Below are positions 15,608-22,709 of a stretch of DNA of 64,000 bases, in pieces (within the stretch, counting starts at the first letter, position 1; every line of letters starts with the position of its first letter). This stretch comes from Bacteroidales bacterium. GTDB taxonomy: Bacteria > Bacteroidota > Bacteroidia > Bacteroidales > F082. The position numbers were made by a program, and so were the translations under genes. The stretch is taken from assembly GCA_016936355.1 (NCBI GenBank), contig JAFGYB010000055.1, forward strand, positions 1 through 64,000, in the 5' to 3' direction. Under the pieces are notes generated by a model. It was given only the letters and a program-made list of their open reading frames with translations, was not told the origin of the DNA and did no database searches.

Positions 15608-16057
15608 ATGAAAAAGATTATTGTAGGAGCGGTTATCCTGTTCGTAGCTTTTGTTTTCACCGGTTGTGCCACTATTTTAACAGGGACCCACGATACCCTT
15701 CATTTCAGTACGGACCCGGAAGGTGCAGTTGTTTACAAAGATGGTCTGAAATTGTGCACCACCCCTTGTGATGTTTCCATGAAGCGTAGTCTGAACAGTC
15801 AGTATGTTACTTTTAAAATGGATGGTTATTATACACGTATGATCACGTTGGACCAGGAGTTTAATGTGGTGAGTGTGATCAACCTGGGTTCCTTACTGGG
15901 TTGGGCCATTGATGCGGCTACAGGATCCATTATGAAATACGGTCTTAAGTCCTATGAGGTTCCGTTGGATAAAAAAGAAGAAACAGCATTGAAACACCCC
16001 CGGAAGATTGAAATCGATACCCAAAAGAAAACCATCAATGTATATGTAAAGAAATAA
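15608..16057 (+). CDS. Small lipoprotein with PEGA-like region
   Basis: Lipobox FTGCA; FSTDPEGAVVYKDGLKLCTTPCDVSMKRSLNSQYVTFKMDGY. Confidence 0.8.
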   Translation: MKKIIVGAVILFVAFVFTGCATILTGTHDTLHFSTDPEGAVVYKDGLKLCTTPCDVSMKRSLNSQYVTFKMDGYYTRMITLDQEFNVVSVINLGSLLGWAIDAATGSIMKYGLKSYEVPLDKKEETALKHPRKIEIDTQKKTINVYVKK

Positions 16058-16107: not shown

Positions 16108-16108
16108 G

Positions 16109-16182
16109 TGGAGCATATCGGAATCGAACCGATGACCTCTTGACTGCCAGTCAAACGCTCTAGCCAACTGAGCTAATGCCCC
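16109..16182 (-). tRNA. tRNA-Ala (anticodon GGC)
   Basis: Reverse complement GGGGCATTAGCTCAGTTGGCTAGAGCGTTTGACTGGCAGTCAAGAGGTCATCGGTTCGATTCCGATATGCTCCA folds as a cloverleaf; loop ctGGCag. Confidence 0.93.
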
Positions 16183-16200: not shown

Positions 16201-16310
16201 ACAAAAATTTTTCTGTTCATTTAAAATTTGATAGAAAAAGTAAAAAAACTAAGATTTTGATGAAACAGGAAAAAGATTCTGAGACATTTTGGTAGACAAG
16301 TACCAAAACC

Positions 16311-16350
16311 AAGTGTTAACAAATGTTATCAAATGTTATAAAGGTTAATT
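16311..16350 (+). repeat. Four 10-bp-phased imperfect direct repeats upstream of TonB receptor
   Basis: AAGTGTTAAC AAATGTTATC AAATGTTATA AAGGTTAATT. Confidence 0.7.
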
Positions 16351-16427
16351 TACATTAAAGCACAAACGAAGTTTACCTTTCGTTAACATAATTTGGAGTT
16401 ATGTAAAATCAACCCGTAAGCTGTTAA

Positions 16428-16561: not shown

Positions 16562-19336
16562 ATGAAAAATTATTTTACACTGTTGCTTCTGATAACGTCT
16601 TTCTATGTTCAGGCAGCAAATATTAAAGGCATCATCAAAGATGTAAACTCAAACGAAATACTGATCGGGGCGGAGATCTTTGAAAAGGGAAATACGAACA
16701 TCAATGCCATATCCGGTTTGGATGGCAGTTTTATTTTAAAGAATCTACCCCCCGGTTCCCATCATCTTGTAGTCAATTATATTGGATATGAGCAAATTGA
16801 TCGAATTATTACCATCAAAAATCCGGGTGATCAGATCAATGTTGTTTTCAAATTAAAACCCAACGAAACCAGTCTTCAGCAAGTTAATGTTGTAGGACAG
16901 TCGGACAAGGAATCGGATATTCATGCCCGGACCGAAGAGAAAAAGTCGAACAATGTGATTAACATTGTATCGGCGAAAACCATCGGCCTGCTTCCCGATA
17001 TAACTGCCGCGGGTATTCTTCAGCGGATTTCCGGAGTTACCATGCAGCACACATCAAACAGTGGTGAAGCTCAGTATGCCATTATCAGGGGGATGGACAA
17101 ACGGTATAATTATACCCTGGTGGATGGAATAAAAATCCCCAGTCCCAACGATAAAAACCGGTACGTGCCGATGGACATTTTCCCGGCCAGTCTGCTTTCG
17201 GGCATAGAAGTCATTAAATCCTTAACCCCGGATATGGAAGGGGATGCCATTGGCGGGGCGATGAATCTCCTTCTTAAGGATGCGCCGGATAGATTTTATT
17301 TAAAGGCGAATTATTCACTGGGCTATAATCAGCTTTTCCTGGAAAGGCCATTCTACAAATATGATTACGGTGCACAAACATTAAAGTCACCGGCTGAAAT
17401 TAACGGGCCGAAGTACCTGGCTACTCCCAGTGACTTTCCCATGTCTGTCGTAGCCTATACTCCGATAACTCCCATTCCAAATATGACCTTTGGTTTTAGT
17501 ATTGGCAACCGGTTTCTGAGAAATAAAAAACTAGGAATTCTTTTTGCCACCAGCTATCAGCATATTTACAGCGGAGCCAACACCATTTTCTTTTCTCCCA
17601 ATGCACAACCCAATGAAGGGACCGTGCCTTTCGAGGGCAATAAACCCACGTTTGACCATCTGGAAAACCGGACCTATTCAACGATGCAGAAGCGTATGGG
17701 ATTGCATGCACGTGTGGATTACCGTATGAACAAGAGAAATAGTTTCGACCTGTATGCTGCCTATTTTCAGTTGGATAAATATGTTTCAAGACAGGCAATC
17801 GGACCTTCCATCAATGGGGCAGGAGTAGGAAATATTAAGGCTAAAGACCGATCAAAAACTACACTGCAGAGAATTTTTAATACAACGCTTCATGGCACTA
17901 ATGTATTGTTGCCAAATATTACCGCCGACTGGGATGCTGTTTATTCACGGGCCTGGGCCTTTACACCCAACGAAGCCGAATTTGGATACAACAGTACCAA
18001 TATTAATGCACCTATTTTGCAGGGGTATACAAGCATCTGGCAACACAATACCGATCAGGATTTATCCGGGTATCTGAACATAACGTACCAACCGGCTCAT
18101 TATGAAAAGGCCCTGACGGTAAAAGCGGGTGGCATGTACCGGCATAAAAACAGGGACAACTACTATAACTCATATTCTCTAACACCTTCTTTTGTCAATG
18201 GCCAGCCTCAGGTTTATACAACTATTGATAAGGCTGTTTGGGAATTCAGACCTGTGGACGAAGGCTATGGTAGCCCGGTTAATCAGAATGATTTTCATGT
18301 TACCGAAGATGTGATGGCTTTTTATGGCGAAGCCAAGCTGATGTTTTGGAGAAGATTAAGTGTACTGGGAGGTGTCAGAGTCGAAAGCACCCATTTGAAT
18401 TACACTACTCCCATGCCTGTCAGTTTCCCTGGTCGTGAAGGAGGGCAGCAATATATAGATGTTCTGCCGAGCATCCACTTCAAATACGCGTTGACTCCAA
18501 AACAAAATTTGTTGCTGAGTTATTTTAAATCCATTTCCCGACCCGGATTTTTTGAAGTGATACCGTACGACATCAGTGGAGACTATTTTAATGAAAAAGG
18601 AAATCCATACCTGAAAAGGACTCAGGCTCAGAATTTCGATTTGAGGTATGAATGGTTTCCGAAATCCTCTGACCAGGTATTGTTAGGTCTTTTTTATAAA
18701 CATCTTACCAATCCAATTGAACAGTCGTTTGTTTTATCAGGTGCAAGTGCCTCTTCTCTTTTTCTGCAACCCCAAAACTTTGGCGATGCTACCAATTACG
18801 GGTTTGAAATGGTGGTAATCAAATATTTTAAAAATTTTGGGATTTCTGCCAATTACACGTATACCAAATCGCAGATTACCACACCGAAAAGAAATTATTT
18901 CCTGGATGCAAATAAGAATATAGTTTCCAATGTGGTAGAACAGACCCGGCCCCTTCAAGGACAGGCTGATAATATTGGTAATTTGTCGTTACTCTATAAA
19001 AATCAACGAATCGGATTTGATTTTCAGTTAACCGGAACCTATACTGGTAAATATATCTCACAGGTAAACCCGTATTATAATCTGGATTACTGGCGGTTTC
19101 CCATGACTACCCTCGGTGTTTCATTCCAGAAACGACTGAGCAAAAAAATCAACCTGATGCTTTACGGCAAAGCCAAAAACATTTTGGATGCCCAAGCCAT
19201 TACCCGTATTCGGGAGCCCAACACCTATTATTCAGGATCATCCAAACTTCCCTATCAGGACAGCCCGAATTCCATTCTGGTTACCAGGGAAGATTATAAA
19301 CCAAGTTATTTATTAGGTATCAAATATTCATTTTAA
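16562..19336 (+). CDS. TonB-dependent outer-membrane receptor with carboxypeptidase-like N-terminal domain
   Basis: Signal peptide; IKGIIKDVNSNEILIGAEIFEKGN domain; plug (YAIIRGMDKRYNYTLVDGIKI); C-terminal aromatic YLLGIKYSF. ORF track starts at 16544. Confidence 0.93.
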   Translation: MKNYFTLLLLITSFYVQAANIKGIIKDVNSNEILIGAEIFEKGNTNINAISGLDGSFILKNLPPGSHHLVVNYIGYEQIDRIITIKNPGDQINVVFKLKPNETSLQQVNVVGQSDKESDIHARTEEKKSNNVINIVSAKTIGLLPDITAAGILQRISGVTMQHTSNSGEAQYAIIRGMDKRYNYTLVDGIKIPSPNDKNRYVPMDIFPASLLSGIEVIKSLTPDMEGDAIGGAMNLLLKDAPDRFYLKANYSLGYNQLFLERPFYKYDYGAQTLKSPAEINGPKYLATPSDFPMSVVAYTPITPIPNMTFGFSIGNRFLRNKKLGILFATSYQHIYSGANTIFFSPNAQPNEGTVPFEGNKPTFDHLENRTYSTMQKRMGLHARVDYRMNKRNSFDLYAAYFQLDKYVSRQAIGPSINGAGVGNIKAKDRSKTTLQRIFNTTLHGTNVLLPNITADWDAVYSRAWAFTPNEAEFGYNSTNINAPILQGYTSIWQHNTDQDLSGYLNITYQPAHYEKALTVKAGGMYRHKNRDNYYNSYSLTPSFVNGQPQVYTTIDKAVWEFRPVDEGYGSPVNQNDFHVTEDVMAFYGEAKLMFWRRLSVLGGVRVESTHLNYTTPMPVSFPGREGGQQYIDVLPSIHFKYALTPKQNLLLSYFKSISRPGFFEVIPYDISGDYFNEKGNPYLKRTQAQNFDLRYEWFPKSSDQVLLGLFYKHLTNPIEQSFVLSGASASSLFLQPQNFGDATNYGFEMVVIKYFKNFGISANYTYTKSQITTPKRNYFLDANKNIVSNVVEQTRPLQGQADNIGNLSLLYKNQRIGFDFQLTGTYTGKYISQVNPYYNLDYWRFPMTTLGVSFQKRLSKKINLMLYGKAKNILDAQAITRIREPNTYYSGSSKLPYQDSPNSILVTREDYKPSYLLGIKYSF

Positions 19337-19356
19337 TAATTAAACAAACTTCTATT

Positions 19357-20817
19357 ATGAAATTTAGAACATTTACAGTATCTGCTCTGACGATCATAGC
19401 AGGACTTATCATTACTTCTTGCAGTAAAAGCAACAGCATTACTGTTTCCACACCTGTTTTACAGATTGGACAAGAAGTGAGCGATGCGGCTCCCTTATCC
19501 GGGAGCATCAAAGGAACCATGGTCACCGGAAAAACGTATGTTATTGGTGGCAATGTTACTGTCAACGCCGGAGATACCCTGCTGCTGCAGCCAGGAGTAA
19601 GGGTGAAGGTTAAAAAGGGGCTGACCATCCTGGTGAAAGGGGTCTTTATTTCTTTGGGCAGCAAAAGTCAACCCAACTGGATTGGGCCATATGATTCATT
19701 GGTGAAGACCGATCAGATTGGTGCTAATCCCGAAACCGATCCGGCTTATTCGGGCTATTGGACGGGTATTGCCTGTGATCCCAGTTGCACCCTTTTTGAT
19801 ATGAAATGGACTCATCTTGAGTTCACAGGTGGTACATATGGAGCAACCTTCTTCCCGGTCGGCAAAGCTGCCGGAAAGACCGCCTTTGGCGTGCTTTTTC
19901 AAAACCCTGACGGAAATATTATTGTAGAGGATTCTTGGTTCTACGGAAGTGTTGATGATATTTTCCGTGTTTCTTCCGGACATTTTAGCTTCATGAGAAA
20001 TACGTTTGAAAAATGTGGTTTTACCGGTGGTGACGGCATCAATGTAAAAGGGGGTAGTATTGGTGATATGGCTTACAATTTATGCGTGGGCAGCGCAACC
20101 AATGCAACCAAAGCTTCGAACAAGAAAAGCCCGGGACCACAGTGCGATGTTAACATGTATAACAATACCTACATTGATTGCGGTTTTCGTCAGGTAGACC
20201 CTACCGGCCGTGGTGGTTCGCTGAATTATGAAGAAGGCGCCAAAGGAGCGGCGTTTAACAACCTGATCGTTAACTGCCGTTGTGGTCTGCGTGTAGATAA
20301 CAAACCTCATGCTGACTTTGCAAACCTGACTTATGGTTACAATTACAGCTATGGTGACTCGTTGAGTGTGTGCGATAATTTTTATCCTGTACCCCCTACT
20401 TATTCCGTAACCATTCCCGAGCCAACCGATATCCCCACGCCTACTCAGGCTGTTTTTCCGGATTCTCTTTATTCAAAAACATACCTCTATGCTCAGGATG
20501 CCAGCGGAGACGGTATTCATTGGGACAAACCGTATGACGGCTCGTCTTTCGTTCAGAAAAATAATCCGGAGTTTGTGAATTTCCCGCTGCCAATACCGAA
20601 TATTAAACATCTTTCAGATGTGTCTGCTGTGGGTAATTTTGATTTCCGCCTTCAGGCAGGTTCTCCGGCCATTGGTGCAGGAACAACGGATCCGAACAAA
20701 ATTTCCCCGTTGAATGCTACCAGCAGTGTGACCGATCCCAACCTGAAAGCCATTGTAACTCCTCCGGGAGCTGATTGCGGTTGCTATCAGAGCAATGGAA
20801 CCGGAAATCAGCATTAA
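19357..20817 (+). CDS. Surface lipoprotein, probable right-handed beta-helix repeat protein
   Basis: Lipobox ITSCS; repeated short strand-like segments (WTHLEFTGGTYGATFF, FRVSSGHFSFMRNTFEKCGF, NNTYIDCGFRQ); 20 bp after TonB receptor gene. Confidence 0.75.
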   Translation: MKFRTFTVSALTIIAGLIITSCSKSNSITVSTPVLQIGQEVSDAAPLSGSIKGTMVTGKTYVIGGNVTVNAGDTLLLQPGVRVKVKKGLTILVKGVFISLGSKSQPNWIGPYDSLVKTDQIGANPETDPAYSGYWTGIACDPSCTLFDMKWTHLEFTGGTYGATFFPVGKAAGKTAFGVLFQNPDGNIIVEDSWFYGSVDDIFRVSSGHFSFMRNTFEKCGFTGGDGINVKGGSIGDMAYNLCVGSATNATKASNKKSPGPQCDVNMYNNTYIDCGFRQVDPTGRGGSLNYEEGAKGAAFNNLIVNCRCGLRVDNKPHADFANLTYGYNYSYGDSLSVCDNFYPVPPTYSVTIPEPTDIPTPTQAVFPDSLYSKTYLYAQDASGDGIHWDKPYDGSSFVQKNNPEFVNFPLPIPNIKHLSDVSAVGNFDFRLQAGSPAIGAGTTDPNKISPLNATSSVTDPNLKAIVTPPGADCGCYQSNGTGNQH

Positions 20818-20854
20818 CTCTGATTTGAAATATCAGTTATGTAAATTTCTTTCT

Positions 20855-20890
20855 AAAGGGACCGGTTTTCAATGGCCGGTCCCTTTATTA
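20855..20890 (+). terminator. Intrinsic terminator
   Basis: AAAGGGACCGG-ttttcaatgg-CCGGTCCCTTT then AT-rich tail. Confidence 0.85.
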
Positions 20891-20909
20891 TTATTTTCAA
20901 AATTCTTTT

Positions 20910-22058
20910 ATGACAAAGGTTAAAATTTTTATGTTCCTGATCTTTTTGTTGATCAACGGAAGCTGTCTTCTGGCGCAGGATAACAACGGCTTTCATTTCA
21001 AATTAAAAGGCCCAATATCAGAAGTCAGTGAAAGTTCGGGGCTGATTTGGACGGAGGGAAGACTATGGACTTTTGGCGACAGCGGAAATCCGGCTATCCT
21101 TTATGCCGTTGATACAACAAACGGTCAGGTGATTCAAACCTTGCGGGTTTCAAACTACGATAACAACGATTGGGAAGATATTGCCGCCGATAAGCAGTTT
21201 CTTTACATAGGTGATTTTGGAAACAATTATGGCGATCGGACAAATCTGAGAATACTTAAAATAAGAAAGTCCGATATTGGTACGGGAAGTTTTCAGAACA
21301 TTACGGCAGAAGCGATCAACTTTTCCTATGCCGATCAAAACAGCTTTGCGCTGAATCAATCGAACAATTATGATTGCGAATCCATGATCAGCAAGGGGGA
21401 TTCGTTGTATCTGTTTTCAAAGGACCGCGGTGATTTTCGTACCCGTGTGTATGCCTTACCTAAAACGCCCGGCACCTATGTGGTAAGTCCTGTTACAAGT
21501 TATAATATTGGAGCGATGGTTTGTGGAGCCGATTATGATTCTCTTTCCAATCAGTTGGTTTTAATCGGTTATGGGAGACATCATCTGAATTCTTTTTTAT
21601 TTCAGGCCCGTGATTTCAGCGGGAATCAATTTTTTTCTTCGTTTAAGAAGAAGGTGATTATTGGAAACGATTATACACAGTGGCAAACAGAAGGAATTGC
21701 TTTTCGCGACAGTTCGGATGTTTTTGTTTCCTGTGAATCGACCTCCGATATTCCGGCTTCGCTTTTTACATTTGATCTCAATCAGCTGAATATAACCTCG
21801 GTGCCGAACTTTCCGGAAAATAAATTTTCAATTTATCCCAATCCGACTTCAGGAAAACTGCATGTTCGACTGCAACAAAGAATCAATCAAATAATTATCC
21901 GTGATTTATCGGGGCAGGTTTTGTTTTCAAAACCGGTGAATGACACCAACCTGTCGCTTGATTTAAGCTTGCTGCACTTGAAAAATGGTTGCTATCTGGC
22001 AGAGCTGCTGGGAACTCACGAAAACTACTTTTCCCGTTTTATGTATTTTAGAAACTAA
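20910..22058 (+). CDS. Secreted T9SS type A cargo protein, propeller/esterase-like body
   Basis: Signal peptide; SSGLIWTEGRLWTFGDSGN...NDWEDIAADKQFLYIGDFGNN; C-terminal sorting domain FSIYPNPTSGKLHVRL...RDLSGQVL...LKNGCYLAEL. Confidence 0.85.
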   Translation: MTKVKIFMFLIFLLINGSCLLAQDNNGFHFKLKGPISEVSESSGLIWTEGRLWTFGDSGNPAILYAVDTTNGQVIQTLRVSNYDNNDWEDIAADKQFLYIGDFGNNYGDRTNLRILKIRKSDIGTGSFQNITAEAINFSYADQNSFALNQSNNYDCESMISKGDSLYLFSKDRGDFRTRVYALPKTPGTYVVSPVTSYNIGAMVCGADYDSLSNQLVLIGYGRHHLNSFLFQARDFSGNQFFSSFKKKVIIGNDYTQWQTEGIAFRDSSDVFVSCESTSDIPASLFTFDLNQLNITSVPNFPENKFSIYPNPTSGKLHVRLQQRINQIIIRDLSGQVLFSKPVNDTNLSLDLSLLHLKNGCYLAELLGTHENYFSRFMYFRN

Positions 22059-22139: not shown

Positions 22140-22709
22140 ATGAAACGTCTGTTTGTAGCCATCAAAATCATCCCGGATGAACAATTTCTTTCGGTGTATC
22201 ATGCACTGAAAAAGGAAATGGTTTTAGATACGCTGAAATGGGTCGAACCGCATAATTTTCACCTGACCTTGAAATTCATTGGAAATACATCTTCGGAACG
22301 CATTCCGGTTTTGGTTAAAGCGTTAAAAGAAGTATCAAAGCGCTATGAACCGTTTACTTTCTCTCTGGAAAAAACCGGTTTGTTCGGAAGCAGCTATCGG
22401 CCACGCATTTTGTGGTTTGGAAGTGAAAACCCGTCAGAAACATTGATTTCGCTGGGCGAAGACGTACTGGAGACGCTGGATAAAGCAGGGTTTCTCCGCG
22501 ATAGGCAAAACTTTGTGCCGCACCTCACGGTGGCCCGGATTAAGCAGATAGTAAGAAAAGAAGCTTTTCAGGAAACCATTCAAAAGCACCAAAACGGGTT
22601 CATCCAAAAAGTGGAGGTCAATCAAATTTACCTTTACGAAAGTATCTTAAGGCCAGAGGGGCCTTTGTATAAAGTGGTTGAAACTTTTTCGCTGACTTCA
22701 AAGTCATAA
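22140..22709 (+). CDS. thpR: RNA 2',3'-cyclic phosphodiesterase (2H family)
   Basis: MKRLFVAIKI; two HxT motifs (HNFHLTLKFIG; FVPHLTVARIK). Confidence 0.92.
   Translation: MKRLFVAIKIIPDEQFLSVYHALKKEMVLDTLKWVEPHNFHLTLKFIGNTSSERIPVLVKALKEVSKRYEPFTFSLEKTGLFGSSYRPRILWFGSENPSETLISLGEDVLETLDKAGFLRDRQNFVPHLTVARIKQIVRKEAFQETIQKHQNGFIQKVEVNQIYLYESILRPEGPLYKVVETFSLTSKS

Follow-up and report, generated by a model that had tools for sequence, protein, structure and literature searches.

The closest described systems pair a TonB-dependent receptor (TBDT) with a β-helix lipoprotein and belong to the phosphate-starvation response. Two such pairs have been reported in Flavobacterium, PUSIII with the lipoprotein FI and PUSIV with the lipoprotein FII (PMC8115612). 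On phosphate depletion of F. johnsoniae, the transcripts of the PUSIV TBDT and FII are strongly induced, changing by 8.0 and 9.9 (FC column, thresholds as log2), and FI is the most abundant exoprotein of phosphate-starved cells, at 18.7% (PMC8115612); both lipoproteins were modelled on polygalacturonase by Lidbury et al. In Caulobacter, ElpS (CC0170) and the TBDT CC0171 form a further phosphate-starvation pair. Cells starved of phosphate produce ElpS, the overexpression of which raised extracellular phosphatase activity, whereas the purified protein was without such activity (PMC2996285). The window analysed here, a 64,000-nucleotide stretch of Bacteroidales DNA, carries a receptor gene, a lipoprotein gene and a third gene between positions 16562 and 22058, all on the forward strand.

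The receptor gene (16562–19336) encodes a protein of 924 residues with matches to the Pfam domains CarbopepD_reg_2 (1e-15), Plug (9e-14) and the β-barrel (1e-21), in agreement with the sequence-only reading, which had placed a TonB receptor here. No STN domain was listed by the Pfam search. The protein is TIGR01782-like (288 bits, E of 1.6e-85, below the curated cut-off of 310 bits) and weakly similar to models of BtuB and of heme receptors. The lipoprotein gene (19357–20817) follows after a spacing of 20 nt (19337–19356) and encodes 486 residues with a lipobox at Cys22; spacing and length had both been read correctly.

The lipoprotein has no Pfam match, including to the SusD-like families PF07980 and PF14322. 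Its AlphaFold2 model, built with 48 relatives in the alignment, is a right-handed parallel β-helix with a pLDDT of 90.9. The top Foldseek matches in the PDB are all β-helix proteins (Pel9A, AlgG, PL6 lyases) at a modest E of ~1e-3, and SusD is absent among these top neighbours. Model and matches together rule out a SusD-like lipoprotein, so that the fold proposed earlier, a β-helix and not a SusD-type binder, withstood the structural comparison suggested for it. Residues D201, N229, K231, N241, K252, N269, N270, T271, R278, N301 and N302 never vary in 30 divergent relatives. From the strand assignment, R204, K231, K252, E292 and R312 would lie in or beside consecutive strands of a single sheet, with outward parity, and the polar, partly basic groove predicted on the β-helix suits an anionic ligand. 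The Cys-containing segments that had also been pointed out are present; however, among the twelve cysteines only Cys22 is invariant in the close family, with 144 and 307 nearly so and most others variable, and the cysteine pattern was therefore dropped as a defining feature. No sequence match of the lipoprotein to any solved enzyme was found, nor were plasmid relatives.

Between the lipoprotein and the third gene lies a terminator-like hairpin with a 14-bp stem and a U-rich tail (20854–20887, forward strand), as the sequence-only reading had it; its stability stands out against shuffled sequences (z = −5.9), and it could uncouple expression of the third gene from that of the receptor–lipoprotein pair. 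The third gene (20910–22058) encodes a predicted secreted protein of 382 residues. Its C-terminus matches Por_Secre_tail (PF18962; 36 bits, cut-off 27) and TIGR04183 (29 bits), both above cut-off, with the type A tail at residues 308–374 (21831–22031), which bears out its description as T9SS cargo. The model of the protein is a β-propeller (pLDDT 81). BtuG1/BtuG2-type lipoproteins are its top Foldseek matches (E of 1e-9, but TM ~0.35 and rmsd 13), and besides these vitamin B12-capture lipoproteins it fold-matches many other propellers, with poor superposition. Assignment as a β-propeller phytase was rejected (no PF02333 match; hhalign probability 0.7%), and the Phytase-like family PF13449 matched at an E of 0.045, below cut-off. 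Of 297 phylum genomes, 70 contain relatives of the third protein, as against 23 of 396 for the lipoprotein, so most of these relatives must lie outside this module. Homologues in the module's propeller slot appear by sequence to be either T9SS cargo or lipoproteins, two predicted routes to the surface.

Relatives of the locus were sought by the lipoprotein alone. Of 396 phylum genomes, 23 proved positive; from a named genome collection, the contigs of which were scanned with a profile from a 12-row subset of the lipoprotein alignment, the best 80 of 309 loci were taken. Cultivable carriers include Flavobacterium sp. 7A, Mucilaginibacter sp. MD40 and Pedobacter segetis. A relative of this receptor lies directly upstream, on the same strand, in all 104 lipoprotein loci with upstream room (median gap 24 nt). 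In the reverse search of 297 phylum genomes, 19 receptor matches were obtained at E < 1e-90, including the window's own, and the lipoprotein stood beside 18 of the 18 others. Receptor and lipoprotein are mutually obligate. The neighbourhood analysis thus upholds the pair within the trio that had been proposed; the third slot is held by different phosphoester enzymes in other genomes, and the full trio is thus not constant. Two loci (L084, L102) each contain two tandem receptor–lipoprotein pairs.

The genes that flank the trio (15608–16057 and 22140–22709) are found in the same order in the closest congener (G007), 257 bp apart, with only a tRNA-Ala between them. Since G007 lacks the trio and no further gene at this position, the three genes represent one unit of gain or loss, by which the third gene is here linked with the pair. 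Lipoprotein relatives were absent from the eleven same-genus genomes searched. The tRNA-Ala(GGC) gene of the window (16108–16182, reverse strand) directly adjoins the insertion point of the trio and is kept in the congener locus that is without the trio (L227).

For the third slot, the two genes that follow on the same strand were surveyed in the 102 loci with enough sequence downstream, and the two genes before the receptor were counted in 87 loci. A recognisable phosphoester hydrolase is encoded downstream in 67 of the 102 loci, versus 16 of the 87 upstream. The 67 comprise 46 metallophosphoesterases, six endonuclease/exonuclease/phosphatase (EEP) proteins, six histidine phosphatases, six β-propeller phytases, two purple-acid type enzymes and one PAP2 protein, and five or more unrelated families are represented in the slot. 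The propeller family of the window is downstream in 18 of 102 loci and either a hydrolase or a propeller in 79; the remaining 23, with neither, count against an organophosphate reading. Pfam analysis of 96 downstream proteins returned 37 Metallophos, six Phytase/BPP (1e-45), one His_Phos_2 and one PAP2 match, and no glycoside hydrolase, lyase or other carbohydrate-active family among the 25 families listed for them. For the EEP proteins, branch 1 of the histidine phosphatases and some of the metallophosphoesterases, the labels come from BLAST to references that we take to be these enzymes, having recognised them by sequence; Pfam did not score these proteins. A PepSY_TM protein of ~177 residues lies between the lipoprotein and the metallophosphoesterase in seven loci (L115, L124, L126, L127, L128, L147 and L153), and PepSY was found in 10–11 loci overall. 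In the phytase-type loci L066, L067, L068, L071 and L072, the receptor is preceded by a conserved, apparently regulator-like TPR protein of ~540 residues.

The pair is always together and usually lies beside phosphate-releasing enzymes, which makes a variant of an already known phosphorus-scavenging system the most likely reading, and the gene context points to organic phosphorus as the substrate, which the sequence-only reading had left open. Receptor, lipoprotein and partner probably, although by no means certainly, constitute an outer-membrane module for organophosphate scavenging, a scheme in which the surface exposure, the substrate, the action as a lid and the propeller's part are predictions. 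The lipoprotein would be anchored on the cell surface by acylated Cys22, its conserved Asp/Asn/Lys/Arg groove would accommodate a phosphorylated substrate such as phytate, nucleotide or lipid head-group esters, and it would hand this substrate on to the TonB receptor, thereby taking the place that SusD has in sugar systems. Using TonB energy, the receptor would then import the ligand, either intact or partly dephosphorylated. The product of the partner gene, as a rule a phosphoester hydrolase and in the window the T9SS-exported β-propeller, would be displayed on the surface or secreted. Of the alternative surface-capture module suggested earlier, the conserved SusD-less pair of receptor and β-helix lipoprotein stands, and the capture role itself is plausible.

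It is rather unlikely that the lipoprotein, instead of serving as a lid, itself attacks organic phosphorus as a phosphoesterase, phosphodiesterase or lyase, or else activates the phosphatase encoded beside it, with the receptor importing the product. Carbohydrate-active enzymes are common in the β-helix fold class, the invariant D201, K231, K252 and R278 could be catalytic, and extracellular phosphatase activity rose on overexpression of ElpS; but purified ElpS did not show this activity (PMC2996285), the lipoprotein matches no solved enzyme in sequence, and the separate hydrolase next door in most loci makes a second enzyme less necessary. Uptake of a glycan, with a pectate-lyase-like lipoprotein that binds or cuts acidic polysaccharide, would accord with the PDB neighbours of the β-helix (pectate lyases, alginate epimerases and PL6 lyases) and with the polygalacturonase-based models of the related FI and FII. 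We consider it improbable, given a locus without SusD, partners dominated by phosphoester hydrolases, with no glycoside hydrolase or lyase in the Pfam families listed for them, and the response of F. johnsoniae FII expression to phosphate (PMC8115612).

Uptake of a cofactor or metal (cobalamin, iron or copper), in which the propeller would act like BtuG, draws on the BtuG1/BtuG2-type surface lipoproteins at the top of the third protein's Foldseek matches and on the weak resemblance of the receptor to BtuB and heme receptor models. It is nonetheless highly improbable: at TM ~0.35 and rmsd 13, the BtuG matches probably reflect the common propeller fold, the propeller is missing from most loci and a phosphoester hydrolase takes its place, and BtuG is a lipoprotein whereas the window propeller is a T9SS cargo.

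The regulatory regions bear on the organophosphate module at the level of the family. Receptor upstream regions contain 109 period-11 direct repeats versus 15 expected, and de novo motif discovery in them yielded GTTAAC-N5-GTTAAT with a log-likelihood of 290, versus at most 83 in shuffled sequence. Trained on one half of the data and tested on the other, the motif distinguished receptor promoters from unrelated genes within these loci (AUC 0.79, p ~2e-9). A PHO box is defined as two 11-nt direct repeats (PMC4415409), and at the family level the tandem repeats are of apparent PhoB-box geometry. The motif also scores higher at Flavobacterium phoB/TBDT promoters than at their neighbours (median 9.9 versus 5.1, p 0.004), with the caveat that 8 of 49 control promoters reach 11.9 or more. 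In the window, the candidate PhoB-box-like 11-bp tandem repeat AAGTTTACCTTTCGTTAACATA (16369–16390, forward strand) is the highest-scoring site in the 36 upstream regions; this single site is not significant (shuffle p 0.064) and, with itself left out of training, is exceeded by 28–48% of controls, so a window-specific Pho box was rejected. Also upstream of the receptor, at 16310–16339, are three ~10-bp direct repeats (CAAGTGTTAA CAAATGTTAT CAAATGTTAT), with a period of 10 and not 11. In the host genome, the assembly of which is only 94% complete, PhoU was not found and the PF12849 matches included no convincing PstS. With these genes not detected and the window site not significant, phosphate control in this organism is an expectation from sequence.

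A search of 60 Flavobacterium genomes with the family profile found true members in two, and most others gave weaker matches (E of 1e-16 to 1e-21) to lipoproteins of ~400 residues. In the ten such loci that were read, the lipoprotein gene has as neighbours a TBDT gene and the genes of a response regulator (phoB-like) and a histidine kinase, as in F. johnsoniae PUSIV (phoR, phoB, the TBDT Fjoh_0545 and FII, Fjoh_0546). Profile–profile alignment of the window lipoprotein family with FII-type proteins (hhalign, 99.2%, E of 1.2e-19 over 295 columns) confirms a distant but significant homology to the phosphate-starvation family FII/ElpS. The DDGxEFFGG motif of that group is not found in the window lipoprotein, the aligned segment of which (VDDIFRVSSG) has only the DD in common, and the window family is therefore a separate branch. 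The host genome has a second pair of a TBDT and a β-helix lipoprotein on contig G000:C25 (L168; 6190–8994 and 9066–10814, both reverse strand), in which the lipoprotein comes first, carries DDGxEFFGG and matches the profile with an E of 2e-12.

The claim of an undescribed accessory system did not survive this homology, since the PUSIII/PUSIV (PMC8115612) and CC0171/ElpS (PMC2996285) pairs had already been reported; the locus instead represents a distinct, widespread variant of them. On this exact subfamily with phytase, the open-access literature searched yielded nothing beyond PMC8115612. The window family ties an FI/FII-related lipoprotein to one receptor type in every judgeable locus and to at least five unrelated hydrolase families, from which a definite and testable expectation follows, that of a surface lid that binds organophosphates. 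To our knowledge, no activity has been assigned to FI/FII or ElpS. It is possible, and we propose it only tentatively, that the β-helix lipoprotein represents a new structural type of surface lid on TonB receptors, a functional counterpart of SusD for phosphorylated ligands (such as phytate and phosphodiesters) that plugs into interchangeable phosphatases across Bacteroidota and, via the ElpS branch, Proteobacteria. The association bears on an open question in bacterial phosphorus nutrition and gives an annotation rule for proteins now called 'hypothetical'.

Among the known systems, PUSIV has in common with the window a TBDT directly upstream of a profile-homologous β-helix lipoprotein, a small T9SS-tailed protein next to it and an 11-bp repeat motif upstream. 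It differs in its distant receptor (22–32% identity in the aligned part), in the DDGxEFFGG motif of FII, missing from the window lipoprotein, and in that FII adjoins phoBR, with no neighbouring phosphoesterase in the loci seen, whereas the window family adds the hydrolase/propeller slot. ElpS likewise is a lipoprotein of the phosphate-starvation response and has homologues that occur together with a TBDT, a comparison made via a syntenic pair on a Sphingomonas parapaucimobilis plasmid (L214, 6368–10938), where an FII-like lipoprotein (tblastn) is followed by a TBDT and gspN/D/E in the arrangement described for Caulobacter; however, ElpS precedes its receptor and is tied to a type II secretion cluster. 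The F. johnsoniae pair Fjoh_1367/1368 (TBDT and 3-phytase), whose TBDT is Pi-induced (PMC8115612), resembles the six phytase-containing loci of the window family in combining a TBDT with a β-propeller phytase, but no β-helix lipoprotein is reported in it. SusCD and PusCD systems share the plan of a TBDT, a surface lipoprotein and an exported hydrolase, from which the window departs in having a β-helix in place of the SusD fold. Relative to the known pairs, what is new is the widespread separate branch and its informative link to interchangeable phosphoester hydrolases.
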